From: Aldrovandia affinis
Lineage: Eukaryota > Chordata > Actinopteri > Notacanthiformes > Halosauridae
DNA: 64,000 nucleotides
Reading direction: 5' to 3'
Assembly (NCBI GenBank): GCA_029706075.1
Contig: JAINUG010000371.1
Coordinates: forward strand, 245,001 to 309,000
The notes under the pieces are model-generated. The model saw nothing but the letters and a program-made list of their open reading frames with translations, searched no databases and had not been told where the DNA came from. The position numbers and the translations under genes were made by a program. Below, in pieces: positions 27,861 through 63,985 of the stretch (positions are counted from its first letter, which is position 1; each line of letters begins with the position of its first letter).

Positions 27861-29560
27861 ATGAGGTGCTTTTCAAAAATTACTTGCATTCTTTGGACGC
27901 CAAACATAATGCTGATGTGCATGTCCAAAAAGCTACATTTTAGTTTGATCTGAACACAAGACACAATTTGTTTCATCTGCCTTTTTCAGTGAATTGTCTT
28001 CAAAAGAGGCTTCCTTCTTGCAACTCTGCCATAAGGCGATTGTCATGTAGGCGTTGTCGAATGGTAGCTTTACACACCTTGTGACCCCAAGATGCCAGGT
28101 TGTTTTGGAGATCTTGAACTGTGCCCCTTGGAGTTATTTTTGCCTCTCGAACCATCCGTCTCTCTACACGTGGGGGCAAGATAGGCTTGATAGACAAAAT
28201 AGACTTCCTCTACCTGGGAGGTTAGCCACTGTTCCAGTGGCCTTAAACGTCCTAATAATTGACACAAGAGTGGAAAGCGGTATCTATTAACTTTTTAGTT
28301 GTTTGTAGCCATCTCCTGATCTGTAGAGGTCAATAAACTTTTCTCTGATAATTCAGGGGTGTCCTTTGCCTTCCACCATGATGATGGCTGACCACAGTAT
28401 TTCAAACGTGTTCCCTCCTTTTTATTCCCAAGGGAAACAGGAAACCATTGTTGGCCACTGTATAGTTCCATTACCTAACAATTAACTTCAAATGAGTTGT
28501 ATATTTATGAAGATTTGTTTTCGTTGGATTAAATGTAAAATAATAGTTCGGGATATGAATAATTGTGATCCAGATGTTTTCTAGGGAAATGAATCAATTA
28601 TACAAAATAAACAAAATGCATCAAATATACCTCATTACTTATACAGTTTATTTTATATGATCTATTTTGTTCATCTTTATCAAGGGTGTGAATAAAAACA
28701 GACCCTACTGTACATACGTGTAAGGCTCAGCTTGTAAGACTGACAAACACATTTTCAGTATTTCAAGTATTTCAAGGTATGCTTTTATTTAACATCTGGT
28801 TTTGTAATTACACTGACATTTAAAACAGAGATAGGCCAGAGTGATTCAAAGGAATACTCACATCAAATATAGTTTAAAAAAAGAAGACAAGCTTGAAAGG
28901 GTTTCCAGAATTCAGTGGTGTCAAAAAAACATTACATTACATTCTTCCGAAAAGGGGATTCATTTAAAGTTGTCAGTGTACACAAAGGGTGCAAACTGTC
29001 AGGACAGGCACATCAATGAGAGGGTGAGGTTTTAGCAAAGGGAGTCGCCTGGAATGAGCAGGTTTTCCACAGTGTTGCTGCATGTCAGAGCTACTGAACG
29101 ACAACAACGTGAGTGTGTATAGTGTTGAGTGGAGGTGCAAGAGAGAAGTAAAATGCATCTGAACTAATGGGGAATGGCTGTGATGCAGTAAGCTGGTGGC
29201 TCCATTGCAGATAACTGAACATATTATCTGTGTACCTCTGACCCTGCAGCAGGAGGTTTTATAATTATTATATAATTATGGGGACCAACATCCACTGTGC
29301 AAGGGGTAAACTACCTAATTATGAACGAGGGCATGAGGGATTTGTGGGAAAATGGAGCTACGATGCCGTTAGTCTCCCAATGATAAATCAACAAGGTTCA
29401 GCGCTTTTCCATACATTTGCTGGTTCGAGGCAGACAAGACCTGGGAAGAGACAGTGCAGGACCGAAGAAGAGTCAAACCGGTTCAATTAGACTCAGAGCT
29501 CAGTGCAACCTGATGAGAGGCTGAAGATGAGCGACCCGATCTGGCTCTTCACTGCAGCGT

Positions 29561-30337
29561 CTAATACTGCCAGCTGCCCCACACGGTGGCCACCAGGGCG
29601 GCGCTGGCGGCAGCAGTCAGGGACAGCTGTACAGAACCGGCCCCGCTGACCACGGGGTTGCAGTTGTCGGTGGCGCAGCAGGTGCGGGTCACCGTGTACG
29701 CGGCACCCAGGATGGTGCCATTGGTTGTGCTGTTGCAGGAGGCGGAGTCAAGGCAGCCCTGGGTGTTGAAGCCAAGGAACTCACTGATGGAGGGGAACGC
29801 TGTGGGGGGAAGGGGTTATGGTAAATACACCATCAAGGAACTGGATTCACAATGCATGTAATCTTAATCTTAATGTTTTTCATGTTAATCTTCATTTCTT
29901 ATATTAAATCAAGGTTCAAGTTCTGGAATTAGTGGAATTTCCTGAAGGGGGGCACCACAGCAGACAATCCTAACAATGAATCGCAATGTTCATGGATAGA
30001 TCTGAACCTCACAGACAGGCACTCTGGTATTCTGAAATCTCTTCCCAATTTTAAAGTTATTTTCTCCCAACTGAGAATGCTCAATTTGTGTGTCTTCCTG
30101 CTCATCGCTGCAACCTCCTCTGTCAATTTGGGAGAGCTCAGGCAAGCACGCTCTATTCATGATGGAGAATGAAAGAATGCGTTTGGGGGGGGGGGGGCAG
30201 TGGAGGGGTGTAAACGTGTCCTCACCTGCTTTTCCAGTGTAGCAGTTGGGCATGGACGCATCACACTCCACAGAATCAGGGATCAGGCATCTGCCCAGAA
30301 TCCCCACGCTGCATTCGTTACACGTCAAGGCTGTTTC

Positions 30338-30370
<33 letters not shown>

Positions 30371-33300: not shown

Positions 33301-36300
33301 CTCATTAAAACCACCCTGTAACATTTTCTCATTGACGCATAACAACTATCCCTCGCGAAGCGCATGCCCCCATGTAGATCCTGTATCAGCCTCTCTCTCA
33401 GCTTGGATCGGTTAATCTGCAGAGAGAGTGTGGGGGTGATGTAGGTTTTTCTGCCCTCTGCTGGACACCTACTGCAGTTCACCGACATTTAAAAAAAAGT
33501 ACCTTTTGCACTAGTTGATGGGTACCACAACCCATGCCAACATGAACTTACCTATATTTGCTGCTTTTATTTTACCTGGGCCGAACAGAAAACAAATGGT
33601 GTTAGTTTAGCTAGCTAGCTACTGACTAGCTAACACATTCTGAACATGTTCTGATGAAGTAACTACGTTAGCTCACTAGGACATGTGTAACACACTTGAT
33701 ACACAACAACAGGTGGTTTGAAATATGGGGGTTGGGGGTATTCACAGCCTTTTATAATCTGAAATAATATGAGGCAGACACACACTGTAAACGCAGATCA
33801 CACTGAATCAAAACATTTTGTGAATGACATGCGTTTGCATTGTAACTCATAGGAAGCCACTACAGACAGTAACAAACAGTGGGACTCGTTTAGAAAACAA
33901 GAATAGCAAAATCTAAAAATGGTTTTAAATTGTTTTAAATGTGGCAGTAGCCTGCAGGCTACATTACGTACATTTGTCTTAAGTCATTTTATCTGGCGAT
34001 AAAACAACAAACGATTGCAATGATGCACATCTGTGTGCTCCAAACGGGTGTTTCTACATTATCATACTTGTCAAACCTGTGTTTAATATGAACATGGACA
34101 CATACTGTAAAGCACTGAGTTCCTATCATATTACCAAATTGAAGTCATACTGCTGCATTATATAATTTGTGGTTAGGGCTAAATATATATGGGTAAAACG
34201 TGTACTATAGTCCATTATATGTAAAAAGTCTGAAGATTTAAACTTACCAAAAATTTTTTATCTTCTTCTTTTTTAGCTGGGACTAACAGAAGAAAATTTG
34301 TGTTAGTAAGTAGCGACCTAAACTAACACATACTGAACATCTATTGATGAAGTAACTAAGTTAGCTGACTAGGACATGTGTAACACATTGATACACAACA
34401 ACAGGTGGTTTGAAATAAGGGGTTTGGGGGAATTCACAGCCTTTAATAATCTGAAATAATACGAGGCAGACACACTGTAAACGCAGCTCACACTAAATCA
34501 ACACGTTTTATGAATGACATGCGTTGTATGGAAAAAAATAGGGTTACTATCCAGCCATGACCCTAGCTCCAGTCATGAACAAACAAACCTCAGAACCCCG
34601 GAACACAATTTGTCATCACTGGGATAGGCTAATCACCGATTAACGTTAAAAAACGAAATTATTCACAAAGCAATTTAATAATATTGAATTTACCGTCTAC
34701 GAAACGGGTGGTTGTCGTTTCATTCTACAAAACCATACTTCTCAAATTAGTTTTTAATAAACAATGACCATGGACACACACTGTAAAGCACTGAGTTCCT
34801 TTCAAATTGAAAAACTAAATTCACACTGATGCATTATACATCTTGAGGATAGGACTAAATATATAGGGGTTAAATGTATACTAGAGTTAATTGTCTGTAC
34901 ATTGTCTTAAGATTTAAACTTACCCATGCCTGCGTAATAGGAACCTGGGATTAACAGAAAAAAAATGGTGTTAGTTCAGCTACTGACAAGCTAACACATA
35001 CTGAACATGTACTGATGAAGTAACTAAGTTAGCTGACTAGGACATGTGTAACACACTTCATACACAACAACAGGTGGTTTGAAATAAGGGGGGTTGGGGG
35101 TATTCACAACCTTTAATAATCTGAAAGAATATGAGGCAGACACACTCTGTAAATGCAGCTCACACAGAATCAACACGTTTTATGAATGACATGCGTTGTA
35201 TGCAACATGTTTTTTATACATTGTGATTTATTGTGTTTTCAGGCGTGTCCCCCCATCGCCCCCCCATAAACAACCCCTATGCAGTCTAGATACACATTCA
35301 CTGAACATGGGCTCACATTGGCTCATTGAACACATTGAACATTGGCTCAGAACATTGAACATCGGCTCAGCTCGAGCGGTCCTGGCTGAATAGTAACCCT
35401 ATTTTCCCCTATTTTGTCCAACTCTTGCGAGGTTTGACTAAGTCCCCATAGTAACGGAGGAAAGTGTCCAACCCTCGTTCCAGCTGTCTTAAACCCACTA
35501 GCACTACACAACATGGCCACTAGCGCTACACAACATGGCCACTAGCGCTACACAACATGGCCACTAGCACTACACAACATGGCCACTAGCACTACACAAC
35601 ATGGCCACTAGCGCTACACAACATGGCCACTAGCGCTACACAACATGGCCACTAGCGCTACACAACATGGCCACTAGCGCTACACAACATGGCCACTAGC
35701 GCTACACAACATGGCCACTAGCACTACACAACATGGCCACTACACAACATGGCCACTAGCACTACACAACATGGCCACTAGCACTACACAACATGGCCAC
35801 TAGCGCTACACAACATGGCCACAACATGGCCACTAGCGCTACACAACATGGCCACTAGCGCTACACAACATGGCCACTAGCACGCACTACACAACATGGC
35901 CACTAGCGCTACACAACATGGCCATTCGCCTAACTCTAGTCTCTATGACACTTTGAAGATTTTTTTATTTTTCTGCTGTTGTCATCGCAAGATTATTCCA
36001 CTAAAATTATAGTTTATCTTGTGAATTTCTATCACAAATTTAACGTAGCTGCAACTAATCTTAGCTAGCTTATTCTCAGCTGCATTCACAACGATGAATT
36101 TACCGTACCTGCAGGTAACCTTAGCTAGCGTTAGCTAGCTAGCTATCTTATTCACAGCTGCATTCACAACGAACCACAAGTCTATCGATTGGAAACACCC
36201 TCTAACGTTTAACCCTCATTTGAGCTATTTCTGCAAACTGAGAGTTGCTCAAAAGACTTGGTAAGAAAACGTGCTCAACTCAAATTCAAATAGTCAAATA

Positions 36301-37492
36301 CACGGAGGTTTATGGTCACTCTTCACATTGTTTCATGTAAATATTAAACTCTGTCAAAGAACTGAAACTTTGTATGCTGCCACTGTTAAGGCCTCAGTAT
36401 ACTTCAAACGAAATCGAAATAGAATCGAATATGGCGCTGCGAGCAAATGTCTGGAAGATTTGGAAAAAAATAGGGTTACTATCCAGCCATGACCCTAGCT
36501 CAAGTCATGAACAAACAAACCTCAGAACCCCGGAAAACAATTTGTCATCACTGGAATAGGCTAATCACCGATTAATGTTAAAAAACGAAATCATTCACAA
36601 AGCAATTTAATAAGATTGAATTGACCGTCTACCAAACGGGTGGTTGTCGTTTCATTCTACAAAACCATACTTCTCAAATGTGTTTTTAATATGAACAATG
36701 ACCATGGGCACACACTGTAAAGCACTGAGTTCCTATCATATTACCAAATTGAAGTCATACTGCTGCATTATATAATTTGTGGTTAGGGCTAAATATATAT
36801 GGGTAAAACGTGTACTATAGTCCATTATATGTAAAAAGTCTGAAGATTTAAACTTACCAAAACATTTTTTATCTTCTTCTTTTTTAGCTGGGCCTAACAG
36901 AAGAAAATTTGTGTTAGTAAGTAGCGACCTAAACTAACATATACTGAACATCTATTGATGAAGTAACTAAGTTAGCTGACTAGGACATGTGTAACACATT
37001 GATACACAACAACAGGTGGTTTGAAATAAGGGGGTTGGGGGTATTCACAGCCTTTAATAATCTGAAATAATACGAGGCAGACACACTGTAAACGCAGCTC
37101 ACACTAAATCAACACGTTTTATGAATGACATGCGTTGTATGCAACACGTTTTTCATACATTGTGATTTATTGTGTATCTAGACGTGTCCCCCCATCGCCC
37201 CATAAACGATGCCTACGCGGTCTAGATGCGCATGCGCCACTGAACATCGGCTCAGCTCGAGCGCCTTCCTCAATCGTGAACGATCAAACCTCAGAGCCCT
37301 GGAACACACTTTTAATCGCTGGGATAGGCTAATCACCGATTTACCTTAAAAACTAAATCATTCACAAGGCAATTTAATGTGTTTTAACTTACCCTCTGCA
37401 TTTCCTTTAACGCCTGCATTTCCTTTACTGCCTGCAAGTCCCCCTCGAAGAAAAGGCAGAATGCAAAAAGACCCCCATAGATGAACGTTCAT
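29561..37492 (-). CDS. Ly6/uPAR-domain GPI-anchored protein, array gene A
   Basis: Predicted small secreted, GPI-anchored three-finger protein; ligand unknown. Exons: 37492-37393 (signal peptide, 100 nt), microexons 36887-36858 (30 nt, KKEEDKKCF), 34944-34924 (21 nt, SYYAGM) and 33575-33552 (24 nt, KIKAANI), then LU exon a 30336-30226 (111 nt, ETALTCNECSVGILGRC) and LU exon b 29799-29561 (239 nt). All junctions are phase 1, as in classical Ly6 genes; the total is 525 nt, about 174 residues. The LU domain has ten cysteines, begins LTCNEC and ends TCCATDNCN. It has NST and NGT glycosylation sequons and a Ser/Gly/Ala stretch before a hydrophobic C-terminus. A fourth microexon-like copy at 34276-34248 is 29 nt and would break the frame, so it was left out. 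The signal peptide is altered by three single-base deletions relative to the paralogues. AATAAA lies at 28784-28789. Confidence 0.75.
30869..32936 (+). repeat. 22-bp minisatellite array in gene A (large)
   Basis: Roughly 90 copies of GCCACTAGCRCTACACAACATG. Several units are truncated or have small indels (for example near 31,380 and 31,600-31,680). It lies in the intron between LU exon a and the 24-nt microexon. Confidence 0.97.
33451..33464 (-). promoter_or_regulatory. CTCF-like motif, Ly6 gene A body
   Basis: Minus strand CCAGCAGAGGGCAG, a full match to the CTCF core, about 90 bp on the 3' side (lower coordinates) of the 24-nt microexon. It lies in a conserved block with GGATCGGTTAATCTGCAG. 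Confidence 0.4.
33540..35210 (-). repeat. Tandem microexon modules in gene A
   Basis: Three consecutive ~690-bp modules, each with one candidate microexon at the same position: 33552-33575, 34248-34276 and 34924-34944 (start spacing 696 and 676 bp). Each module shares the donor context GTAAGTTTAAATC or GTAAGTTC and an upstream acceptor reading YCCCAG or CCCAG. Each also carries a shared block around the phrase GATACACAACAACAGGTGG and a block with TTTAATAATCTGAAA. The middle copy is one base short in a homopolymer. Confidence 0.7.
35496..35924 (+). repeat. 22-bp minisatellite array in gene A (small)
   Basis: About 19 copies of the same 22-bp unit, in the intron between the 21-nt and distal 30-nt microexons. 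Its flanks (GTTAAACC-type sequence on the left, TCGCCTAACTCTAG on the right) match the other arrays. Confidence 0.97.
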
Positions 37493-37504
37493 CTCTACAG
37501 TGTT

Positions 37505-40060: not shown

Positions 40061-40068
40061 TGTATATG

Positions 40069-40738: not shown

Positions 40739-43700
40739 CTAATACTGCCAGCTGCCCCACACGGTGGCCACCAGGGCGGCGCTGGCGGCAGCAGTCAGGG
40801 ACAGCTGTACAGAACCGGCCCCGCTGACCACGGGGTTGCAGTTGTCGGTGGCGCAGCAGGTGCGGGTCGCCGTGTACGCGGCACCCAGGATGGTGCCATT
40901 GGTCGTGCTGTTGCAGGAGGCGGAGTCAAGGCAGCCCTGGGTGTTGAAGCCAAGGAACTCACTGATGGAGGGGAACGCTGTGGGGGGAGGGGGTTATGGT
41001 AAATACACCATCAAGGAACTGGATTCACAATGCATGTAATCTTCATCTTAATGTTTTTCATGTTAATCTTCATTTCTTATATTAAATCAAGGTTCAAGTT
41101 CTGGAATTAGTGGAATTTCCTGAAGGGGGGCACCACAGCAGACAATCCTAACAATGAATCGCAATGTTCATGGATAGATCTGAACCTCACAGACAGGCAC
41201 TCTGGTATTCTGAAATCTCTTCCCAATTTTAAAGTTATTTTCTCCCAACTGAGAATGCTCAATTTGTGTGTCTTCCTGCTCATCGCTGCAACCTCCTCTG
41301 TCAATTTGGGAGAGCTCAGGCAAGCACGCTCTATTCATGATGGAGAATGAAAGAATGCGTTTGGGGGGGTCAGTGGAGGGGTGTAAACGTGTCCTCACCT
41401 GCTTTTCCAGTGTAGCAGTTGGGCATGGACGCATCGCACTCCACAGAATCAGGGATCAGGCATCTGCCCAGAATGCCAATTGTGCATTGGTTACACGTCA
41501 AGGCTGTTTCTGTGTGTGAGAGAGAGACTATTGTGTTTTCAGGAGTGTCTCCCCATCTCCCCCCCATAAACGACCCCTACGCAGTCTAGATACACATTCA
41601 CGGAACATTGGCTCACATTGGCTCATTGAACACATTGAACATCGGCTCAGCTCGAACAGTCCTGGCTGAATAGTAACCCTATTTTCCCCTATTTTGTCCA
41701 ACTCTCGCGAGGTTTGACTAAGTCCCCATAGTAACGAAGGAAAGTGTCCAACCCTCGTTCCAGCTGTGTTAAACCCACTAGCACTACACAACATGGCAAC
41801 TAGCACTACACAACATGGCCACTAGCGCTACACAACATGGCCACTAGCGCTACACAACATGGCCACTAGCACTACACAACATGGCCACTAGCGCTACACA
41901 ACATGGCCACTAGCGCTACACAACATGGCCACTAGCACTACACAACATGGCCACTAGCGCTACACAACATGGCCACTAGCGCTACACAACATGGCCACTA
42001 GCACAACATGGCCACTAGCACTACACAACATGGCCACTAGCACTACACAACATGGCCACTAGCGCTACACAACATGGCCACTAGCACTACACAACATGGC
42101 CACTAGCGCTACACAACATGGCCACTAGCGCTACACAACATGGCCACTAGCACTACACAACATGGCCACTAGCACTACACAACATGGCCACTAGCGCTAC
42201 ACAACATGGCCACTAGCGCTACACAACATGGCCACTAGCGCTACACAACATGGCCACTAGCGCTACACAACATGGCCACTAGCGCTACACAACATGGCCA
42301 CTAGCACTACACAACATGGCCACTAGCACTACACAACATGGCCACTAGCGCTACACAACATGGCAATTCGCCTAACTCTAGTCTCTATGACACTTTGAAG
42401 ATTTTTCTGCTGTTGTCATCGCAAGATTATTCCACTAAAATTATAGTTTATCTTGTGAATTTCTATTACAAATTTAACGTAGCTGCAACTAATCTTAGCT
42501 AGCTTATTCTCAGCTGCATTCACAACGATGAATTTACCGTACCTGCAGGTAACCTTAGCTAGCGTTAGCTAGCTAGCTATCTTATTCACAGCTGCATTCA
42601 CAACGAACCACAAGTCTATCGATTGGAAACACCCTCTAACGTTTAACCCTCATTTGAGCTATTTCTGCAAACTGAGAGTTGCTCAAAGACTTGGTAAGAA
42701 AACGTGCTCAACTCAAATTCAAATACACGGAGGTTTATGGTCACTCTTCACATTGTTTCATGTAAATATTAAACTCTGTCAAAGAACTGAAACTTTGTAT
42801 GCTGCCACCGTTAAGGCCTCAGTATACTTCAAACGAAATCGAAATAGAATCGAATATGGCGCTGCGAGCAAATGTCTGGAAGATTTGGAAAAAAATAGGG
42901 TTACTATCCAGCCATGACCCTAGCTCAAGTCATGAACAAACAAACCTCAGAACCCCGGAAAACAATTTGTCATCACTGGAATAGGCTAATCACCGATTAA
43001 TGTTAAAAAACGAAATCATTCACAAAGCAATTTAATAAGATTGAATTTACCGTCTACCAAACGGGTGGTTGTCGTTTCATTCTACAAAACCATACTTCTC
43101 AAATGTGTTTTTAATATGAACAATGACCATGGGCACACACTGTAAAGCACTGAGTTCCTATCATATTACCAAATTGAAGTCATACTGCTGCATTATATAA
43201 TTTGTGGTTAGGGCTAAATATATATGGGTAAAACGTGTACTATAGTCCATTATATGTAAAAAGTCTGAAGATATAAACTTACCATAAAATCCTTTATCCT
43301 TTTGTTTTTTAACTGGGCCTAACAGAAGAAAATTTGTGTTAGTAAGTAGCGACCTAAACTAACACATACTGAACATCTATTGATGAAGTAACAAAGTTAG
43401 CTGACTAGGACATGTGTAACACATTGATACACAACAACAGGTGGATTGAAATAAGGGGGTTGGGGGTATTCACAGCCTTTAATAATCTGAAATAATACGA
43501 GGCAGACACACTGTAAACGCAGCTCACACTAAATCAACACGTTTTATGAATGACATGCGTTGTATGCAACACGTTTTTCATACATTGTGATTTATTGTGT
43601 ATCTAGACGTGTCCCCCCGTCGCCCCCCATAAACGATGCCTACGCGGTCTAGATGCGCATGCGCCACTGAACATCAGCTCAGCTCGAGCGCCTTCCTCAG

Positions 43701-43922
43701 TCGTGACGATCAAACCTCAGAGCCCTGGAACACCATTTTAATCGCTGGGATAGGCTAATCACCGATTCACCTTAAACAACGAAATCATTCACAAGGCAAT
43801 TTAATGTGTTTTAACTTACCCTCTGCATTTCCTTTAACGCCTGCATTTCTTTTACTGCCTGCAAGTCCCCCCTCGAAGAAAAGGCAGAATGCCGCAAAGA
43901 CCCCCCATAGATGAACGTTCAT
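40739..43922 (-). CDS. Ly6/uPAR-domain GPI-anchored protein, array gene B
   Basis: This is the shortest copy and has the simplest structure. Exons: 43922-43820 (signal peptide MNVHLWGVFAAFCLFF, 103 nt), one 30-nt microexon 43312-43283 (KKQKDKGFY), LU exon a 41509-41399 (ETALTCNQCTIGILGRC, 111 nt) and LU exon b 40977-40739 (239 nt, stop TAG). All introns are phase 1 and the total is 483 nt, about 160 residues. The LU domain keeps all ten cysteines, including CCATDNCN, and a hydrophobic tail that ends SWQY. It differs from the others at NQCTIG instead of NECSVG, and its microexon is the most divergent of the 30-nt type. Polyadenylation signal AATAAA at 40235-40240. With few exons and no broken module, it is the best candidate for an unambiguous gene model. 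Confidence 0.8.
41776..42364 (+). repeat. 22-bp minisatellite array in gene B
   Basis: About 27 copies of the unit, with the same flanking sequence as in gene A. Confidence 0.97.
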
Positions 43923-46989: not shown

Positions 46990-49900
46990 CTAATACTGCC
47001 AGCTGCCCCACACGGTGGCCACCAGGGCGGCGCTGGCGGCGGCAGTCAGGGACAGCTGTACAGAACCGGCCCCGCTGACCACGGGGTTGCAGTTGTCGGT
47101 GGCGCAGCAGGTGCGGGTCACCGTGTACGTGGCACCCAGGATGGTGCCATTGGTCGTGCTGTTGCAGGAGGCGGAGGCAAGGCAGCCCTGGGTGTTGAAG
47201 CCAAGGAACCCACTGATGGAGGGGAACGCTGTGGGGGGAAGGGGTTATGGTAAATACACCATCAAGGAACTGGATTCACAATGCATGTAATCTTAATCTT
47301 AATGTTTTTCATGTTAATCTTCATTTCTTATATTAAATCAAGGTTCAAGTTCTGGAATTAGTGGAATTTCCTGAAGGGGGGCGGCAGAGCACCACAGCAG
47401 AGCTTTGCATGAAATCCTGACAATTAATCGCAATGTTCATGGATAGATCTGACCCTCACAGACAGGCACTCTGGTATTCTGGACTCTCTTCCCAATTTTA
47501 AAGTTATTTTCTCCCAACTGAGAATGCTCAATTTGTGTGTGTTCCTGCTCATCGCTGCAACCTCCTCTGTTAATCTGGGAGAGCTCAGGCAAGCACGCTC
47601 TATTCATGATGGAGAATGAAAGAATGCATTTGGGGGGGGCAGTGGAGGGGTGTAAACGTGTCCTCACCTGCTTTTCCAGTGTAGCAGTTGGGCATGGACG
47701 CATCACACTCCACAGAATCAGGGATCAGGCATCTGCCCAGAATCCCCACGCTGCATTCGTTACACGTCAAGACTGTTTCCATCAGTTTATAGCCTGGGAA
47801 CACCCAACAACGTTTAACCCTCATTTGAGTTATTTCTGCAAACTGAGAGTTGCTCAAAAGGCTTGGTAAGAAAACGTGCTCAACTCAAATTCAAATAGTC
47901 TAATACACGGAGGTTTATGGTCACTCTTCACATTGTTTCATGTAAATATTAAACTCTGTATGCTGCCACCGTTAAGGCCTCAGTATACTTCAAACGAAAT
48001 CGAAACAGAATCGAATACGGCGCTGCGAGCAAATGCCAATGTATTCGCTGCGACTTCAGGTCTGTTCGTTTAATGACACTCCACGCCAGATGGGGGAGCT
48101 TGCTAGTCGCTAGACTACAGAACCACAAATATAAATACTAATGGAGCAAACATCGACAAGAGCCGAATGTGCAACGCATTCATGCTTGATGTACAAAATA
48201 ACCTTGTTTAAACCATCATACCTTATGATAGGACCCCATAACAGACATAAGAAAATGTCCTCCAGAAAACTGCAAAATGTCACTTCTCATTGTACGTTGT
48301 ATATAGCATCAACTGACTGTGAAATTATTTTTTGATGTAGTAGAGCATAGGTTAGCCTGGTCTACATTACATTTAGACAACTGTGTATCGGCAATTGTCA
48401 TTACTAAGCAGGGTTCCTTTTCTTTTGATGATAACTTCAAATAAATGGTATCTGACTATCCGTATTAATATACTGTTGCTAATTAGCAAGCTGGTTAATT
48501 TAATTAACAACTAGCCTGTGTCACAGAATTGGTGGTGAACTGAGGCCATAGATAACGTCAAATAACTAATGACGATTTTGGTGACAAGCCAACTACAGCT
48601 AAACTTTGGTGTAGCTAGCTACAAAGTGGTGCATTTACCCAAGAACAACGTTTCCAACTGGATTCGCAGAAAAAAAAAAGCCTGTCAACACAAAATATAG
48701 CTAGCTAGAGCTGACGACACAAGGAGAGGAACAGCTGGACGCGAAGATAATAAGATGTAAAGCGGCCCAAATACATCCGTAAAAAACGAACCAAGAACAA
48801 GATCGGAAATCGAAGCCCAACACAGCGCATCGTTTCGGCCACAAACCCACCATCTTGCCTGTGCGAACATGCCAAATTGCATTTTGTTTGAAGTATACTG
48901 AAGCCTTAAGTCATTTGCCTCAACAAATAGCGGCAAATGCGCATGCGCGAGATCTGGAAAAAATAGGGTTACTATCCAGCCATGACCCTAGCTCCAGTCA
49001 TGAACAAACAAACCTCAAAACCCCGGAACACAATTTTTCAACACTGGGATAGGCTAATCACCGATTAACATTAAAAAACATTGATGCATTATACAAGTTG
49101 AGGATAGGACTAAATATATAGGGGTTAAACATATACTAGAGTTCATTGTCTGTGCATTGTCTTAAGATTTAAACTTACCCATGCCTGCTGGAGCGGCACC
49201 TGCGACTAACAGAAGAAAATGGTGTTAGTTCAATTACTGACAAGCTAACACATACTGAACATGTACTGATGAAGTAACTAAGTTAGCTGACCAGGACATG
49301 TGTAACACATTGATACACAACAACAGGTGGTTTGAAATAAGGGGTTTGGGGGTATTCACAGACTTTAATAATCTGAAATAATACGAGGCAGACACACTGT
49401 AAACGCAGCTCACACTAAATCAACACGTTTTATGAATGACATGCGTTGTATGGAAAAAAATAGGGTTACTATCCAGCCATGACCCTAGCTCCAGTCATGA
49501 ACAAACAAACCTCAGAACCCCGGAACACAATTTGTCATCACTGGGATAGGCTAATCACCGATTAACGTTAAAAAACGAAATTATTCACAAAGCAATTTAA
49601 TAATATTGAATTTACCGTCTACCAAACGGGTGGTTGTCGTTTCATTCTACAAAACCATACTTCTCAAATTAGTTTTTAATAAACAATGACCATGGACACA
49701 CACTGTAAAGCACTGAGTTCCTTTCAAATTGAAAAACTAAATTCACACTGATGCATTATACATTTTGAGGATAGGACTAAATATATAGGGGTTAAATGTA
49801 TACTAGAGTTAATTGTCTGTACATTGTCTTAAGATTTAAACTTACCCATGCCTGCGTAATAGGAACCTGGGATTAACAGAAAAAAAATGGTGTTAGTTCA

Positions 49901-52900
49901 GCTACTGACAAGCTAACACAGACTGAACATGTACTGATGAAGTAACTAAGTTAGCTGACCAGGACATGTGTAACACACTTCATACACACAACAACAGGTG
50001 GATTGAAATAATCTGGGTGAGGCAGACACTCTGTATTCAGAATCAACCTTTAATAATCTGAAAGAATATGAGGCAGACACACTCTGTAAATGGGCGGCTC
50101 ATTGAACACATTGAACATTGGCTCAGCTCGAGCGGGACTGGCTGAATAGTAACCCTATTTTCCCCTATTTTGTCCAACTCTCGCGAGGTTTGACTAAGTC
50201 CCCATAGTAACGAAGGAAAGCGTCCAACCCTCGTTCCAGCTGTGTTAAACCCACTAGCACTACACAACATGGCCACTAGCGCTACACAACATGGCCACTA
50301 GCGCTACACAACATGGCCACTAGCGCTACACAACATGGCCACTAGCACTACACAACATGGCCACTAGCACTACACAACATGGCCACTAGCACTACACAAC
50401 ATGGCCACTAGCACTACACAACATGGCCACTAGCACTACACAACATGGCCACTAGCGCTACACAACATGGCCACTAGCGCTACACAACATGGCCACTAGC
50501 GCTACACAACATGGCCACTAGCGCTACACAACATGGCCACTAGCTACACAACATGGCCACTAGCGCTACACAACATGGCCACTAGCGCTACACAACATGG
50601 CCACTAGCGCTACACAACATGGCCACTAGCGCTACACAACATGGCCACTAGCGCTACACAACATGGCCACTAGCGCTACACAACATGGCCACTAGCGCTA
50701 CACAACATGGCCACTAGCCACGCTACACAACATGGCCACTAGCACTACACAACATGGCCACTAGCGCTACACAACATGGCCACTAGCACTACACAACATG
50801 GCCACTAGCGCTACACAACATGGCCACTAGCACTACACAACATGGCCACTAGCGCTACACAACATGGCCACTAGCGCTACACAACATGGTCACTAGCGCT
50901 ACACAACATGGCCACTAGCACTACACAACATGGCCACTAGCGCTACACAACATGGCCACTAGCGCTACACAACATGGCCACTAGCACTACACAACATGGC
51001 CACTAGCGCTACACAACATGGCCACTAGCACTACACAACATGGCCACTAGCGCTACACAACATGGCCACTAGCACTACACAACATGGCCACTAGCACTAC
51101 ACAACATGGCCACTAGCGCTACACAACATGGCCACTAGCGCTACACAACATGGCCACTAGCGCTACACAACATGGCCACTAGCGCTACACAACATGGCCA
51201 CTAGCACTACACCACATGGCCACTAGCGCTACACAACATGGCCACTAGCACTACACAACATGGCCACTAGCACTACACAACATGGCCACTAGCACTACAC
51301 AACATGGCCACTAGCACTACACAACATGGCCACTAGCACTACACAACATGGCCACTAGCGCTACACAACATGGCCATTCGCCTAACTCTAGTCTCTATGA
51401 CACTTTGAAGATTTTTTTATTTTTCTGCTGTTGTCATCGCAAGATTATTCCACTAAAATTATAGTTTATCTTGTGAATTTCTATCACAAATTTAACGTAG
51501 CTGCAACTAATCTTAGCTAGCTTATTCATTCAGCTGCATTGCAGGTAACCTTAAGCGTTATGCTAGCTATCTTATTCACAGCTGCATTCACAACGATGAA
51601 TTTACCGTACCTGCAGGTAACCTTAGCTAGCGTTAGCTAGCTAGCTATCTTATTCACAGCTGCATTCACAACGAACCACAAGTCTATCGATTGGAAACAC
51701 CCTCTAACGTTTAACCCTCATTTGAGCTATTTCTGCAAACTGAGAGTTGCTCAAAAGGCTTGGTAAGTAAACGTGCTCAACTCAAATTCAAATAGTCAAA
51801 TACACGGAGGTTTATGGTCACTCTTCACATTGTTTCATGTAAATATTAAACTCTGTCAAAGAACTGAAACTTTGTATGCTGCCACCGTTAAGGCCTCAGT
51901 ATACTTCAAACGAAATCGAAATAGAATCGAATATGGCGCTGCGAGCAAATGTCTGGAAGATTTGGAAAAAAATAGGGTTACTATCCAGCCATGACCCTAG
52001 CTCAAGTCATGAACAAACAAACCTCAGAACCCCGGAAAACAATTTGTCATCACTGGAATAGGCTAATCACCGATTAATGTTAAAAAACGAAATCATTCAC
52101 AAAGCAATTTAATAAGATTGAATTTACCGTCTACCAAACGGGTGGTTGTCGTTTCATTCTACAAACCATACTTCTCAAATGTGTTTTTAATATGAACAAT
52201 GACCATGGGCACACACTGTAAAGCACTGAGTTCCTATCATATTACCAAATTGAAGTCATACTGCTGCATTATATAATTTGTGGTTAGGGCTAAATATATA
52301 TGGGTAAAACGTGTACTATAGTCCATTATATGTAAAAAGTCTGAAGATTTAAACTTACCAAAAATTCTTTTATCTTCTTCTTTTTTAGCTGGGCCTAACA
52401 GAAGAAAATTTGTGTTAGTAAGTAGCGACCTAAACTAACACATACTGAACATCTATTGATGAAGTAACTAAGTTAGCTGACCAGGACATGTGTAACACAT
52501 TGATACACAACAACAGGTGGATTGAAATAAGGGGTTGGGGGTATTCACAGCCTTTAATAATCTGAAATAATACGAGGCAGACACACTGTAAACGCAGCTC
52601 ACACTAAATCAACACGTTTTATGAATGACATGCGTTGTATGCAACACGTTTTTCATACATTGTGATTTATTGTGTATCTAGACGTGTCCCCCCGTCGCCC
52701 CCCATAAACGATGCCTACGCGGTCTAGATGCACATGCGCCACTGAACATCAGCTCAGCTCGAGCGCCTTCCTCAGTCGTGACGATCAAACCTCAGAGCCC
52801 TGGAACACACTTTTAATCGCTGGGATAGGCTAATCACCGATTTACCTTAAACAACTAAATCATTCACAAGGCAATTTAATGTGTTTTAACTTACCGCCTG

Positions 52901-52997
52901 CATTTCTTTTATTGCCTGCATTTCTGTTACCGCATGCAAGTCCCCCCTCGAAGAAAAGGCAGAATGCCGCAAAGACCCCCCATAGATGAACGTTCAT
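46990..52997 (-). CDS. Ly6/uPAR-domain GPI-anchored protein, array gene C
   Basis: Exons: 52997-52895 (signal peptide, then a Cys/Asn/Arg-rich tail CGNRNAGNKRNAG, 103 nt), microexons 52388-52359 (30 nt, KKEEDKRIF), 49866-49846 (21 nt, SYYAGM) and 49199-49179 (21 nt, AAPAGM), LU exon a 47793-47668 and LU exon b 47228-46990 (239 nt). LU exon a is 126 nt rather than 111. A deletion joined it to intron sequence from further upstream, and the new acceptor TTCCCAG adds GYKLM before ETVLTCNEC while keeping phase 1. The total is 540 nt, about 179 residues. All ten LU cysteines remain. LU exon b shows SGFLG and CLASAS where A and B have SEFLG and CLDSAS. The extra cysteine after the signal peptide is unique to this copy. 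AATAAA at 46485-46490. Confidence 0.75.
49165..49990 (-). repeat. Tandem microexon modules in gene C
   Basis: Two modules 667 bp apart carry two versions of the 21-nt microexon, one reading SYYAGM (49846-49866) and the other AAPAGM (49179-49199). The last residues AGM and the whole donor side are shared, so one arose from the other by module duplication followed by divergence of the exon's 5' half. Confidence 0.7.
50252..51375 (+). repeat. 22-bp minisatellite array in gene C
   Basis: About 51 copies of the unit, nearly all full length, between the microexon modules and the distal 30-nt microexon. Confidence 0.97.
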
Positions 52998-53713: not shown

Positions 53714-53727
53714 CTGCCCTCTGCTGG
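53714..53727 (-). promoter_or_regulatory. CTCF-like motif upstream of gene C
   Basis: Minus strand CCAGCAGAGGGCAG, about 700 bp upstream of the signal-peptide exon. Confidence 0.4.
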
Positions 53728-55660: not shown

Positions 55661-55665
55661 ATATG

Positions 55666-55666
<1 letters not shown>

Positions 55667-55699
<33 letters not shown>
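55667..55699 (+). repeat. GT microsatellite, Ly6 unit copy 3
   Basis: About 33 bp of GT, homologous to the tract at 40071. Confidence 0.9.
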
Positions 55700-55700
<1 letters not shown>

Positions 55701-56332: not shown

Positions 56333-59300
56333 CTAATACTGCCAGCTGCTCCACACGGTGGACACCAGGGCGGCGCTGGCGGCAGCGGCAGCGGCGGTCA
56401 GGGACAGCTGTACAGAACCGGCCCCGCTGACCACGGGGTTGCAGTTGTCGGTGGCGCAGCAGGTGCGGGTCACCGTGTACGCGGCACCCAGGATGGTGCC
56501 ATTGGTCGTGCTGTTGCAGGAGGCGGAGTCAAGGCAGCCCTGGGTGTTGAAGCCAAGGAACTCACTGATGGAGGGGAACGCTGTGGGGGAGGGGGTTATG
56601 GTAAATACACCATCAAGGAACTGGATTCACAATGCATGTAATCTTAATCTTAATGTTTTTCATGTTAATCTTCATTTCTTATATTAAATCAAGGTTCAAG
56701 TTCTGGAATTAGTGGAATTTCCTGAAGGGGCACCACAGAGCACCACAGCAGAGCAATTTGCATGAAATCTGACAATTCACAGACAGGCACTTTGGTATTC
56801 TGGACTCTCTTCCCAATTTTAAAGCTATTTTCTCCCAACTGAGAATGCTCAATTTGTGTGTGTTCCTGCTCATCGCTGCAACCTCCTCTGTTAATCTGGG
56901 AGAGCTCGGGCAAGCACGCTCTATTCATGATGGAGAATGAAAGAATGCGTTTGGGGGGGGGGGGCAGTGGAGGGGTGTAAACGTGTCCTCACCTGCTTTT
57001 CCAGTGTAGCAGTTGGGCATGGACGCATCGCACTCCACAGAATCAGGGATCAGGCATTTGCCCAGAATCCCCACGCTGCATTCGTTACACGTCAAGGCTG
57101 TTTCTGTGTGTGAGAGAGAGAGAGAGAGAGAGATGAACTGGAGAATTAGCAATAATCAATGACACATTTACAAACACTGTTAAAGCATGGTGTTCTCACA
57201 ATGCAAAAAATCATGAAAAGCAACAGGAATATGATGCAAAATTCTGTTGATAAGACGTGCACTGGTATTCACAACCTTTAATAATCTGAAACAATATGAG
57301 GCAGACACACTCTGTAAATGCAGCTCACACTGAATCAACACGTTTTATGAATGACATGCGTTGTATGCAACACGTTTTTTTATCACTATTGTGTTTTAAG
57401 GCGTGTCCCCCCATCTCCCCCCCATAAACGACCCCTACGCAGTCTAGATACACATTCACGGAACATTGGCTCACATTGGCTCATTGAACACATTGAACAT
57501 TGGCTCAGAACATTGAACATCGGCTCAGCTCGAGCGGTCCTGGCTGAATAGTAACCCTATTTTCCCCTATTTTGTCCAACTCTCGCGAGGTTTGACTAAG
57601 TCCCCATAGTAACGAAGGAAAGCGTCCAACCCTCGTTCCAGCTGTCTTAAACCCACTAGCGCTACACAACATGGCCACTAGCACTACACAACATGGCCAC
57701 TAGCACTACACAACATGGCCACTAGCGCTACACAACATGGCCACTAGCACTACACAACATGGCCACTAGCCTACACAACATGGCCACTAGCGCTACACAA
57801 CATGGCCACTAGCACTACACAACATGGCCACTAGCACTACACAACATGGCCACTAGCACTACACAACATGGCCACTAGCACTACACAACATGGCCACTAG
57901 CGCTACACAACATGGCCACTAGCACTACACAACATGGCCACTAGCACTACACAACATGGCCACTAGCACTACACAACATGGCCACTAGCACGCACTACAC
58001 AACATGGCCACTAGCGCTACACAACATGGCTACTAGCACTACACAACATGGCCACTAGCGCTACACAACATGGCCACTAGCACTACACAACATGGCCACT
58101 AGCACTACACAACATGGCCACTAGCGCTACACAACATTGCCACTAGCACTACACAACATGGCCACTAGCGCTACACAACATGGCCACTAGCACTACACAA
58201 CATGGCCACTAGGGCTACACAACATGGCCACTAGTACTACACAACATGGCCACTAGCACGCACTACACAACATGGCCACTAGCACTACACAACATGGCCA
58301 CTAGGGCTACACAACATGGCCACTAGTACTACACAACATGGCCACTAGCACGCACTACACAACATGGCCACTAGCGCTACACAACATGGCCACTAGCACT
58401 ACACAACATGGCCACTAGCACTACACAACATGGCCACTAGTGCTACACAACATGGCAATTCACCTAACTCTAGTCTCTATGACACTTGGAAGATTTGTAT
58501 ATTTTTCTGCTGTGGTCATTGCAAGATTATTCCACTAAAATGATAGTTTATCTTGTGAATTTCTATCACAAACTTAAGGTAGCTGCAACTAATCTTAGCT
58601 ACCTTATTCTCAGCTGCATTCATAATGATGAACTTACGGTAGCTGCAGGTAACCTTTACATAACCATTGTTTCATGTAAATATTAAACTGTGTCAAAGAA
58701 CTGAAACTTTGTATGCCGACACCGTTAAGGCCTCAGTATACTTCAAACGAAATCGAAATAGAATCGAATATGGCGCTGCGAGTAAAGGAAAAGTAAATGT
58801 TTAAAAACAGTAAATTAACTCATTAAAACCACCCTGTAACATTTTCTCATTGACGCATAACAACTATCCCTCGCGAAGCACATGCCCCCATGTAGATCCT
58901 GTATCAGCCTCTCTCTCAGCTTGGATCGGTTAATCTGCAGAGAGAGTGTGGGGGTGATGTAGGTTTTTCTGCCCTCTGCTGGACACCTACTGCAGTTCAC
59001 CGATATTTAAAAAAAAGTACCTTTTGCACTAGTTGATGGGTACCACAACCCATGCCAACAGGAACTTACCTATATTTGCTGCTTTTATTTTACCTGGGCC
59101 GAACAGAAAACAAATGGTGTTAGTTTAGCTAGCTAGCTAGCTACTGACTAGCTAACACATTCTGAACATGTTCTGATGAAGTAACTACGTTAGCTCACTA
59201 GGACATGTGTAACACACTTGATACACAACAACAGGTGGTTTGAAATAAGGGGGTTGGGGGTATTCACAGCCTTTTATAATCTGAAATAATATGAGGCAGA

Positions 59301-62300
59301 CACACTGTAAACGCAGATCACACTGAATCAAAACATTTTGTGAATGACATGCGTTTGCATTGTAACTCATAGGAAGCCACTACAGACAGTAACAAACAGT
59401 GGGACTCGTTTAGAAAACAAGAATAGCAAAATCTAAAAATGGTTTTAAATTGTTTTAAATGTGGCAGTAGCCTGCAGGCTACATTACGTACATTTGTCTT
59501 AAGTCATTTTATCTGGCGATAAAACAACAAACGATTGCAATGATGCACATCTGTGTGCTCCAAACAGGTGTTTCTACATTATCATACTTGTCAAACCTGT
59601 GTTTAATATGAACATGGACACATACTGTAAAGCACTGAGTTCCTATCATATTACCAAATTGAAGTCATACTGCTGCATTATATAATTTGTGGTTAGGGCT
59701 AAATATATATGGGTAAAACGTGTACTATAGTCCATTATATGTAAAAAGTCTGAAGATTTAAACTTACCAAAAAATGGTTTATCTTCTTCTTTTTTAGCTG
59801 GGACTAACAGAAGAAAATGTGTGTTAGTAAGTAGCGACCTAAACTAACACATACTGAACATCTATTGATGAAGTAACTAAGTTAGCTGACTAGGACATGT
59901 GTAACACATTGATACACAACAACAGGTGGTTTGAAATAAGGGGTTTGGGGGTATTCACAGCCTTTAATAATCTGAAATAATACGAGGCAGACACACTCTG
60001 TAAATGCAGCTCACACGATAGGCTAATCACCCGATTAACGTTAAAACGAAATTATTCACAAAGCAATTTAATAATATTGAATTTACCGTCTACGAAACGG
60101 GTGGTTGTCGTTTCATTCTACAAAACCATACTTCTCAAATTAGTTTTTAATAAACAATGACCATGGACACACACTGTAAAGCACTGAGTTCCTTTCAAAT
60201 TGAAAAACTAAATTCACACTGATGCATTATACATCTTGAGGATAGGACTAAATATATAGGGGTTAAATGTATACTAGAGTTCATTGTCTGTACATTGTCT
60301 TAAGATTTAAACTTACCCATGCCTGCGTAATAGGAAGCTGGGATTAACAGAAAAAAAATGGTGTTAGTTCAGCTACTGACAAGCTAACACATACTGAACA
60401 TGTACTGATGAAGTAACTAAGTTAGCTGACCAGGACATGTGTAACACATTGATACACAACAACAGGTGGATTGAAATAAGGGGGGTGGGGGTATTCACAA
60501 CCTTTAATAATCTGAAAGAATATGAGGCAGACACACTCTGTAAATGCGGCTCATTGAACACATTGAACATTGGCTCAGCTCGAGCGGGACTGGCTGAATA
60601 GTAACCCTATTTTCCCTATTTTGTCCAACTCTCGCGAGGTTTGACTAAGTCCCCATAGTAACGAAGGAAAGCGTCCAACCCTCGTTCCAGCTGTGTTAAA
60701 CCCACTAGCGCTACACAACATGGCCACTAGCGCTACACAACATGGCCACTAGCGCTACACAACATGGCCACTAGCGCTACACAACATGGCCACTAGCACT
60801 ACACAACATGGCCACTAGCACTACACAACATGGCCACTAGCACTACACAACATGGCCACTAGCGCTACACAACATGGCCACTAGCGCTACACAACATGGC
60901 CACTAGCACTACACAACATGGCCACTAGCACTACACAACATGGCCACTAGCACTACACAACATGGCCACTAGCACTACACAACATGGCCACTAGCGCTAC
61001 ACAACATGGCCACTAGCACTACACAACATGGCAATTCGCCTAACTCTAGTCTCTATGACACTTTGAAATTTTTTTATTTTTCTGCTGTTGTCATCGCAAG
61101 ATTATTCCACTAAAATTATAGTTTATCTTGTGAATTTCTATCACAAATTTAACGAGCTGCAACTAATCTTAGCTAGCTTATTCTCAGCTGCATTCATAAC
61201 GATGAATTTACCGTACCTGCAGGTAACCTTAGCTAGCGTTAGCTAGCTAGCTATCTTATTCACAGCTGCATTCACAACGAACCACAAGTCTATCGATTGA
61301 AACACCCTCTAACGTTTAACCCTCATTTGAGCTATTTCTGCAAACTGAGAGTTGCTCAAAAGGCTTGGTAAGTAAACGTGCTCAACTCAAATTCAAATAG
61401 TCAAATACACGGAGGTTGGTCACTCTTCACATTGTTTCATGTAAATATTAAACTCTGTCAAAAAGAACTGAAACTTTGTATGCTGCCACCGTTAAGGCCT
61501 CAGTATACTTCAAACGAAATCGAAATAGAATCGAATATGGCGCTGCGAGCAAATGTCTGGAAGATTTGAAAAAAATAGGGTTACTATCCAGCCATGACCT
61601 AGCTCAAGTCATGAACAAACAAACCTCAGAACCTGGAAAACAATTTGTCATCGCTGGAATAGGCTAATCACCGATTTACCTTAAAAAACGAAATCATTCA
61701 CAAGGCAATTTAATAAGATTGTTTTAACGTCTACCCTCTGCATTTCATTCTACAAAACCAACTTCTCAAATTTCTTTTAATGAACAATGACCAAGTCACA
61801 CTCGAAGAAAAGGCTAGATATTACCAAATTGAAGTCCCTGCTGCATGAATAATTCATCTAGGGCTAAAGTTATATGGGGTGTTTATAGTCCATTATATGC
61901 AAAAGTTCTTAAAACCAAAAAAAACCTTTATCCTTTGTTTTTAACTGGGTGGAACAGAAAAATTTTGTTAGTAAGTAGATTGAGAAACTAACACATACTT
62001 TACATCTATTGATGAAGTAGAGGTGTGACAGGTTTTTTGTCATCTTTAACAGGAATGATACTGTTTTTTTTTTGGTTTGAAATAAGGGGTTTCGATGGCT
62101 GGGAGAGCCTTTAATAATGCTGAATAGGCAAGGCAGAATCTGAAACGCTTGCTAAAACAAATCGTTTGTTTTATGAATGATCCCCGTCCTATGCAACACG
62201 GGGTGGTTGTTATTAAGGACGCAAGCTGCTTTGGTCTCCAACCGTATATTTTTTCATTGAAGAAACAGTGTACTATATCAATGCTGCTACCCAATTCACG

Positions 62301-63985
62301 TGTAATAGGCCTAAACATGGTGAACGATTTCCAGCCACTATGTGAGTGGATTTCGCGTGGAAGGTTTCTATGTCCTAATTTAAGGAAAAATAAATGTTTA
62401 AAAACAGTTAATTAACTCATTAAAACCACCCTGTAACATTTTCTCATTGACGCATAACAACTATCCCTCGCGAAGCGCATGCCCCCATGTAGATCCTGTA
62501 TCAGCCTCTCTCTCAGCTTGGATCGGTTAATCTGCAGAGAGAGTGTGGGGGTGATGTAGGTTTTTCTGCCCTCTGCTGGACACCTACTGCAGTTCATCGA
62601 CATTTAAAAAAAAGTACCTTTTGCACTAGTTGATGGGTACCACAACCCATGCCAACATGAACTTACCTATATTTGCTGCTCTTATTTTATCTGGGCCGAA
62701 CAGAAAACAAATGGTGTTAGTTTAGCTAGCTAGCTACTGACTAGCTAACACATTCTGAACATGTTCTGATGAAGTAACTACGTTAGCTCACTAGGACATG
62801 TGTAACACACTTGATACACAACAACAGGTGGTTTGAAATAAGGGGGTGGGGGTATTCACAGCCTTTTATAATCTGAAATAATATGAGGCAGACACACACT
62901 GTAAACGCAGATCACACTGAATCAAAACATTTTGTGAATGACATGCGTTTGCATTGTAACTCATAGGAAGCCACTACAGACAGTAACAAACAGTGGGACT
63001 CGTTTAGAAAACAAGAATAGCAAAATCTAAAAATGGTTTTAAATTGTTTTAAATGTGGCAGTAGCCTGCAGGCTACATTACGTACATTTGTCTTAAGTCA
63101 TTTTATCTGGCGATAAAACAACAAACGATTGCAATGATGCACATCTGTGTGCTCCAAACGGGTGTTTCTACATGATCATACTTGTCAAACCTGTGTTTAA
63201 TATGAACATGGACACATACTGTAAAGCACTGAGTTCCTATCATATTACCAAATTGAAGTCATACTGCTGCATTATATAATTTGTGGTTAGGGCTAAATAT
63301 ATATGGGTAAGACGTGTACTATAGTCCATTATATGTAAAAAGTCTGAAGATTTAAACTTACCAAAAAATGGTTTATCTTCTTCTTTTTTAGCTGGGACTA
63401 ACAGAAGAAAATTTGTGTTAGTAAGTAGCGACCTAAACTAACACATACTGAACATCTATTGATGAAGTAACTAAGTTAGCTGACTAGGACATGTGTAACA
63501 CATTGATACACAACAACAGGTGGTTTGAAATAAGGGGGTTGGGGGTATTCACAGCCTTTAATAATCTGAAATAATACGAGGCAGACACACTCTGTAAACG
63601 CAGCTCACACTAAATCAACACGTTTTATGAATGACATGCGTTGTATGCAACACGTTTTTCATACATTGTGATTTATTGTGTATCTAGACGTGTCCCCCCG
63701 TCGCCTCCCATAATCGATGCCTACGCGGTCTAGATGCGCATGCGCCACTGAACATCGGCTCAGCTCGAGCGCCTTCCTCAATCGTGACGATCAAACCTCA
63801 GAGCCCTGGAACACACTTTTAATCGCTGGGATAGGCTAATCACCGATTTACCTTAAAAAACTAAATCATTCACAAGGCAATTTAATGTGTTTTAACTTAC
63901 CGTCTGCTCTTTTTTTACCGACTGCAAGTCCCCCCTCGAAGAAAAAGCAGAATGCCGCAAAGACCCCCCATAGATGAACGTTCAT
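56333..63985 (-). CDS. Ly6/uPAR-domain GPI-anchored protein, array gene D
   Basis: Exons: 63985-63901 (signal peptide MNVHLWGVFAAFCFFF, then VGKKRAD, 85 nt), five microexons 63391-63362 (KKEEDKPFF), 62690-62667 (KIRAANI), 60337-60317 (SYYAGM), 59797-59768 (KKEEDKPFF) and 59093-59070 (KIKAANI), LU exon a 57103-56993 (111 nt) and LU exon b 56580-56333 (248 nt). All are phase 1; the total is 573 nt, about 190 residues. LU exon b has nine extra bases that lengthen an alanine run in the tail. A degenerate signal-exon and microexon region at 61.7-62.2 kb lies inside this model, so D may be a fusion of two ancestral units by unequal crossing-over. The alternative is that the distal exons belong to a different transcript. 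AATAAA at 55828-55833. The 5' flank runs off the window at 64000. Confidence 0.65.
57654..58457 (+). repeat. 22-bp minisatellite array in gene D (proximal)
   Basis: About 36 copies. It shares the CACGCACTACACAAC and GGGCTACACAAC variants with the 3' end of the large gene A array, so the two are closest relatives. Confidence 0.97.
58969..58982 (-). promoter_or_regulatory. CTCF-like motif, gene D body (proximal)
   Basis: Minus strand CCAGCAGAGGGCAG, homologous to the one at 33451, next to the 24-nt microexon at 59070. Confidence 0.4.
59060..60500 (-). repeat. Tandem microexon modules in gene D (proximal set)
   Basis: The modules correspond to those of gene A in the same order, carrying the 24-nt (59070-59093), 30-nt (59768-59797) and 21-nt (60317-60337) microexons. 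Here the 30-nt copy is in frame (KKEEDKPFF). The spacing between the second and third is only 549 bp because part of one module is deleted near 60,010. Confidence 0.7.
60703..61032 (+). repeat. 22-bp minisatellite array in gene D (distal)
   Basis: About 15 copies, with the same flanks as the array in gene C. Confidence 0.97.
61680..62215 (-). pseudogene. Mosaic remnant of a Ly6 signal exon and microexon
   Basis: Short pieces of the signal-exon module (CTCTGCATTTC, CTCGAAGAAAAGGC, GAGGTGTGACAGGTTTTTT) alternate with pieces of the microexon module (ATTCTACAAAACCA, ATTACCAAATTGAAGT, TAACACATACT), at the matching positions of each. A 30-nt microexon relic near 61920 has lost its GTAAGT donor, and no start codon is left. 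It lies within the gene D model. Confidence 0.6.
62566..62579 (-). promoter_or_regulatory. CTCF-like motif, gene D body (distal)
   Basis: Minus strand CCAGCAGAGGGCAG, next to the 24-nt microexon at 62667. Confidence 0.4.

Follow-up and report, generated by a model that had tools for sequence, protein, structure and literature searches.

Four tandem Ly6/uPAR (LU) genes in the halosaur Aldrovandia affinis carry, between the signal exon and the two exons of the LU domain, one to five candidate microexons each, and these small exons appear to have changed more than the introns around them. The genes lie in a 64-kb window (the whole stretch of DNA that was analyzed) of assembly GCA_029706075.1, contig JAINUG010000371.1, positions 245001-309000; this contig is C1880 below, where C-numbers denote contigs of the assembly and L-numbers single loci that were read. 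Judged by homology, every microexon is embedded in a piece of a repeat that is dispersed through the 1.22-Gb assembly over which the searches were made. In the arrays, the exon body tends to have diverged about 2.6-5 times as fast as the adjoining intron sequence; most of the changes alter amino acids, and most keep the frame. We put a probability of about 55% on the reading that repeat-derived microexons were recruited by these genes and then diversified by selection, which would place a variable cationic N-terminal stalk on a near-constant LU scaffold.

Gene anatomy of the array

LU genes typically consist of three exons with phase-1 introns (PMC6600238). An exon-by-exon rebuild of the window gave four units in tandem on the minus strand between positions 63985 and 29561, starting at 63985 (A), 52997 (B), 43922 (C), and 37492 (D) (Table 1). 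Every unit has the signal exon and two LU exons (a and b) of an LU gene, joined in phase 1, and every unit departs from the usual form of three coding exons by candidate extra exons of 21, 24, or 30 nt behind a signal exon that ends in phase 1. Five microexons are in frame at this junction in unit A, three in B, one in C, and three in D, which also contains a 29-nt copy (34276) that is one base short within a T-run. All acceptors used in the four units are AG; the donor is GTAAGT at signal exons and microexons and GTGAGG at LU exon a. The reading frame is uninterrupted in units A, B, and C, and in D once the 29-nt copy is omitted, and the resulting coding lengths of 573, 540, 483, and 525 nt agree exactly with those proposed in a first-pass annotation made from the letters of the window alone. 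The architecture proposed there, phase-1 microexons at the signal/LU junction giving each unit its own stalk before a near-constant LU domain, holds for the rebuilt gene models. Individual units have their own irregularities: a sixth, degenerate block in A (61944) has lost its donor, a changed acceptor adds 15 nt in frame to LU exon a of B, and the signal exon of D lacks 3 nt relative to B and C, the net result of several indels that alter the signal sequence.

Ten cysteines and the end motif CC-x4-CN, both claimed in the first-pass annotation, were found in the LU domain of each unit, and the Pfam profile UPAR_LY6 matches unit A with 34 bits (E = 4.2e-8) and unit C with 32.8 bits (E = 1e-7), above the curated cut-off of 24.8. 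The C-terminus, as judged by eye, has small residues and a hydrophobic tail, and the LU domain is probably anchored by glycosylphosphatidylinositol (GPI). The predicted stalks of A-D are 24-51 residues long, and lysine plus arginine exceeds aspartate plus glutamate in all four (13/9, 8/4, 7/3, and 8/5). Between units C and D, the microexon differs by 7 nonsynonymous changes in 30 nt and the LU exons by 5 in 206 sites. LU exon a of unit C (41509-41399), of a fifth unit, E (L005), and of C776-X have in common CAATGCACAATTGGC (NQCTIG), where NECSVG or NKCSVG is read elsewhere, C843 being truncated at that place. Clustered loop 1 changes in LU exon a possibly represent a second variable segment.

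Homologous microexon blocks were located with profiles of their left and right flanks, run on the fetched stretches. This gave 41 blocks, 35 of them with intact splice sites. When an AG at -5 or -6 is also permitted as acceptor, 32 of the 35, corresponding to 22 of 25 distinct exons, keep the frame and contain no stop codon.

A dispersed repeat carrying the microexon

A search of the assembly with the C2172 block produced 41 matches (40 of 74 candidates scored), 24 on array contigs and at least 17 on 16 other contigs, none of which is among the 29 listed LU matches. Such dispersed homologous copies are a hallmark of transposable elements. Only three of the 17 off-array matches are near full length; each of the others is limited to one side of the block, either the left flank plus the first part of the exon or the right flank. 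Another block search had returned array contigs only (20 of 20 candidates), and the idea of a block private to Ly6 genes was dropped because the second search revealed the dispersed copies.

Ten dispersed loci were read. Their flanks are common with those of the array blocks and enclose an exon-like, lysine-rich stretch of 48-64 nt; the acceptor AG is kept in all ten, a CTAAC branch point in nine, and a GT donor in eight. The peptide of the repeat, NMKRKADIRTFFKSQGQK at locus L052, lies in the same frame as is used in the Ly6 genes, so the repeat read in that frame would account for the lysine-rich stalks. Inspection by eye of roughly 6 kb surrounding each of two repeat copies revealed no recognizable transposase, and a peptide built on the repeat, of partly guessed sequence, matched no Pfam family convincingly (best E = 0.099). 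The repeat peptide presumably resembles the start of hAT-type transposases, and we leave its class open; a hAT origin was set aside after no hAT-domain match was found near the loci read (150 of 4288 candidates scored).

Divergence of exons and flanks

Changes were counted on trees of the microexon families in the exon body and in 60-nt flanks, omitting C776, the 29-nt copies, and the blocks C2114 10017 and C2114 176. The sum is 55/184 in exons versus 65/721 in flanks (ratio 3.3), and the excess is clearest in families F1 (11/30 versus 5/120, p = 3.3e-5), F3ac (19/39 versus 8/120, p = 6.8e-7), and F4 (7/21 versus 10/121, p = 0.008). Flanks of 200 nt, counted without the degenerate block 306944 (F1), C2114 176, and C843 409 (both F3), gave 68/144 versus 364/1983 (ratio 2.6), with ratios of 5.6 for F1, 0.9 for F2, 3.9 for F3, 1.9 for F4, and 4.2 for F5, F2 and F4 including flanks that look non-homologous. 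Eight disjoint pairs, chosen by hand from a pairwise comparison, gave 47/234 versus 39/959 (ratio 4.9). Another pairwise comparison was confined to pairs with flank divergence below 0.15. Five copies on C843 have 0/120 flank differences in all ten pairs and up to 5/30 exon differences, all nonsynonymous. A left-side profile of flank divergence by distance (free end gaps), its flank indel figure, and an ungapped cross-family identity (left-flank shifts) were set aside. Microexons as unconstrained as the introns, which the first-pass annotation had named as the pattern that would tell against its proposal, were not seen: length and frame are mostly kept and the exon body changes faster than the introns.

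The dispersed copies serve as an internal control that helps to tell selection apart from mutation bias. Among eight of the ten dispersed loci (L051 being a repeat of L050, and L055 losing homology), divergence is 0.176 in the exon-like stretch versus 0.209 in the flanks (ratio 0.84), and the exon is faster in 10 of 28 pairs. Eight of 11 array rows gave 0.559 versus 0.141, with the exon faster in 28 of 28 pairs; alignment between array exons of different families is poor, and the value of 0.559 therefore includes segment replacement as well. Because the dispersed copies have no exon excess, the excess goes with location in the Ly6 genes and not with the sequence itself. Exon length is divisible by three in 2 of 8 dispersed copies versus 22 of 25 distinct array exons, an uneven comparison in which the dispersed copies were scored by length only, whereas the array exons also had to be open and could use an AG at -5/-6. 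The end of the signal exon gives a similar picture in some pairs: past the assumed cleavage site, its tail differs at 8/40 positions between units B and C and at 9/40 between B and D; for B and C, the signal part has 0/63 differences, the upstream sequence 0/119, and the intron that follows 4/120.

Several results weigh against recruitment followed by selection. If the primary AG alone is permitted, the frame is kept and open in 18 of 24 distinct exons; two 29-nt copies, one 41-nt copy, and the lost donor at 61944 are broken blocks, and blocks on C2114, C2172, and C44 have lost their acceptors. In all four units, the phases would also permit a direct splice from the signal exon to LU exon a. 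With 60-nt flanks, F2 (11/30 versus 24/120, p = 0.075), F3b (5/40 versus 10/120, p = 0.31), and F5 (2/24 versus 8/120, p = 0.52) are not significant alone, nor are F2, F4, and F5 with 200-nt flanks, and all p-values are too small because related copies were treated as independent. In the F2 pair C2172-C44, the exon is slower than the flank (4/30 versus 19/120), and the signal-exon tail is not faster between C and D (1/40) or between C and C776-Y (0/37). Of the 27 pairs of LU exons for which the ratio of nonsynonymous to synonymous differences per site (pN/pS) is defined, 18 have values below 1 and nine, including six with the C2114 copy, have values above 1; the LU domain is therefore not a clean, strictly conserved contrast to the microexons.

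The permissive phases and the broken blocks are also what would be expected if the blocks were intronic repeat fragments with splice-like ends inherited from the repeat and if transcripts spliced the signal exon directly onto LU exon a. Dispersed copies away from LU matches do have the same acceptor and donor, and a distant relative on C1841 (LU exon b 62%) looks like a plain three-exon gene, reading signal exon, LU a, and LU b; its signal exon is our choice between two candidates, and nothing like the microexon flank rose above background in its 5.6 kb (best E = 0.57). We nevertheless consider simple intronic fragments quite unlikely: they give no reason for an exon-over-flank excess that is missing from the dispersed copies or for the difference in frame retention between arrays and dispersed loci, and the signal-exon tail, translated whether or not microexons are included, differs strongly between B and both C and D.

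A different possibility is that the microexons are used and that their fast change reflects gene conversion, segment exchange, or local mutation bias rather than selection on a stalk. Clustered differences in F4 and in unit C within F1 resemble exchanged segments, C776 matches several places of C1880 at 93-98%, and the F1 exons are A-rich. A bias intrinsic to the sequence should also act in the dispersed copies, where the ratio is 0.84; the F2 exons are not A-runs and have changed only nonsynonymously; and conversion tracts would have no reason to stop at splice sites. We regard this explanation as unlikely, and diversification of recruited repeat exons by selection as the better account of the divergence pattern.

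The wider family and comparison with known systems

A protein search (29 matches, 30 candidates scored) identified eleven close LU exon pairs in the assembly: five on C1880, two on C776, and one each on C2172, C843, C2114, and C44. The four-gene array of the first-pass annotation thus stands as far as the window goes, and the LU pairs extend beyond it, with a fifth on C1880 and others on five further contigs. Eleven signal exons were found within the fetched stretches, three of them frame-shifted. Unit E, just right of the window, has lost the acceptor of LU exon a, and no signal exon was found for it up to C1880:338000. LU exon a is truncated on C843; C776 has single-base losses in signal and LU exons and a second 29-nt microexon copy. 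Such losses, with the indels in the signal exon of unit D, could suggest a decaying or misassembled set of copies in which the exon differences are noise. This is very unlikely, given that A, B, and C read through fully and D does so without the 29-nt copy, that summed flank divergence is below exon divergence, and that the F1 excess stays without C776 (11/30 versus 5/120).

The 18.4-kb contig C776 (L028, L029) contains three related signal exons and two complete units with two and one microexon blocks; this contig may be either an allele of the array or a separate array. Beside the three-exon relative, L045 (C1841:354201-359800) has another LU match, which is partial and reaches 41% across 37 residues (E = 0.18). 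Elsewhere in the window, an open frame of 330 residues (20007-20999, plus strand) has Tc1/Sleeping Beauty-type transposase domains (HTH_Tnp_Tc3_2, DDE_3, HTH_SB), and a von Willebrand A domain (7970-8650, minus strand, E = 7.9e-23) lies near frames at 2066-2404 and 3511-3816 that look collagen-like by eye, without a Pfam match. A long minisatellite at 5254-6752 (minus strand) is open in three frames, and a 22-bp minisatellite occupies the intron before LU exon a at 41770-42360 and at about 30620-32300.

Table 1. Exons and related blocks of the four LU units (window positions)
Feature	Position	Strand	Basis
Unit A signal exon, 85 nt, ends in phase 1	63901..63985	-	exon rebuild
Unit A microexon 1, 30 nt (AKKEEDKPFF)	63362..63391	-	flank profile, exon rebuild
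Unit A microexon 2, 24 nt (DKIRAANI)	62667..62690	-	flank profile, exon rebuild
Unit A degenerate block, 19 nt, donor lost	61926..61944	-	flank profile
Unit A microexon 3, 21 nt (ASYYAGM)	60317..60337	-	flank profile, exon rebuild
Unit A microexon 4, 30 nt (AKKEEDKPFF)	59768..59797	-	flank profile, exon rebuild
Unit A microexon 5, 24 nt (GKIKAANI)	59070..59093	-	flank profile, exon rebuild
Unit A LU exon a, 111 nt	56993..57103	-	exon rebuild
Unit A LU exon b, 248 nt, hydrophobic tail and stop	56333..56580	-	UPAR_LY6 E=4.2e-8
Unit B signal exon, 103 nt	52895..52997	-	exon rebuild
Unit B microexon 1, 30 nt (AKKEEDKRIF)	52359..52388	-	flank profile, exon rebuild
Unit B microexon 2, 21 nt (GSYYAGM)	49846..49866	-	flank profile, exon rebuild
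Unit B microexon 3, 21 nt (GAAPAGM)	49179..49199	-	flank profile, exon rebuild
Unit B LU exon a, 126 nt, changed acceptor	47668..47793	-	exon rebuild
Unit B LU exon b, 239 nt	46990..47228	-	exon rebuild
Unit C signal exon, 103 nt	43820..43922	-	exon rebuild
Unit C microexon, 30 nt (VKKQKDKGFY)	43283..43312	-	flank profile, exon rebuild
Repeat fragment with unit C microexon (aligned stretch, not repeat ends)	43172..43422	-	alignment to ten dispersed loci
Unit C LU exon a, 111 nt	41399..41509	-	exon rebuild
Unit C LU exon b, 239 nt	40739..40977	-	UPAR_LY6 E=1e-7
Unit D signal exon, 100 nt, indels sum to a multiple of three	37393..37492	-	exon rebuild
Unit D microexon 1, 30 nt (AKKEEDKKCF)	36858..36887	-	flank profile, exon rebuild
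Unit D microexon 2, 21 nt (GSYYAGM)	34924..34944	-	flank profile, exon rebuild
Unit D 29-nt copy, splice sites intact, out of frame	34248..34276	-	flank profile
Unit D microexon 3, 24 nt (GKIKAANI)	33552..33575	-	flank profile, exon rebuild
Unit D LU exon a, 111 nt	30226..30336	-	exon rebuild
Unit D LU exon b, 239 nt	29561..29799	-	exon rebuild

In schistosome micro-exon genes, micro-exons form most of the coding region. The units described here resemble them in having symmetric microexons of 3n length behind a signal exon (in the window, the 29-nt copy and the degenerate 19-nt block are exceptions) and in recent gene expansion; the proteins of the schistosome genes are found in secretions and have raised ratios of nonsynonymous to synonymous substitution rates (dN/dS) (PMC4350168). 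They are set apart, by description and not by sequence, in that the microexons here would encode a short stalk before an LU domain. Teleost LU clusters are likewise tandem, with a signal exon, two LU exons, and phase-1 introns, and the available text on them gives the usual exon form and does not mention repeat-derived microexons (PMC6600238). Accelerated segment switch (ASSET) in snake three-finger toxins is similar in that short exon stretches change radically between paralogues of a three-finger family; those segments lie within the toxin exons, whereas here whole microexons outside the LU domain change (PMC2711939).

The closest precedents are GPIHBP1 and SP-10, named in one source as the only two human proteins in which a disordered N-terminal segment is encoded by an additional exon (PMC6600238). 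They share with the units described here a single LU domain, an extra exon between signal and LU exons (in our gene models), and an N-terminal arm of varying length. In GPIHBP1 one extra exon encodes an acidic disordered arm that speeds ligand capture (PMC6600238), and the origin of this exon, exon 2, has been discussed, with BCL11A speculated as a source (PMC3339605). The stalks described here differ from that acidic arm in being net cationic, in arising from one to five microexons per window unit, in being homologous to a repeat, and in differing among paralogues. The first-pass annotation knew of no described Ly6 family with this architecture; GPIHBP1 and SP-10 qualify this as precedents with one extra exon, and in the sources available no case with several or repeat-derived microexons appeared. 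Our literature search for repeat-derived or multiple microexons in Ly6 genes found none, which is weak evidence of novelty, most subscription papers lying outside its coverage. What appears to be new is the repeat origin and fast change of the stalk exons; the LU scaffold itself looks ordinary.

If recruitment and selection explain the array, a transposon-like repeat in intron 1 would have supplied a ready-made exon, with branch point, acceptor, lysine-rich coding stretch, and donor, and the block would then have been duplicated to one to several copies per gene. Each copy would have phase 1 at both ends, be spliced in behind the signal exon and ahead of the LU exons, and thus be free to be gained, lost, or skipped with the frame intact. 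Selection would have remodeled the peptides into different flexible, net cationic stalks on a near-identical LU domain with a C-terminal membrane anchor. By analogy with the acidic arm of GPIHBP1, the stalk would most likely act as a variable cationic capture arm, making electrostatic contact at the cell surface with a changing partner, which might be a microbe, a gamete, or another ligand. Rather unlikely is the further idea that the repeat exon serves as a cassette system whose microexons are gained and lost, and perhaps spliced combinatorially, to form a fast-changing recognition arm on a conserved GPI-anchored three-finger scaffold; with all five microexons of unit A open to skipping, that gene alone could yield as many as 32 splice forms. 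If the microexons are used in messenger RNA, they would be a clear case of repeat-derived exons forming the fastest-changing part of a vertebrate surface protein. A compact disulphide-bonded scaffold would in this way gain variable binding arms with its fold untouched, and the drivers of Ly6 expansions would become testable through the stalk.

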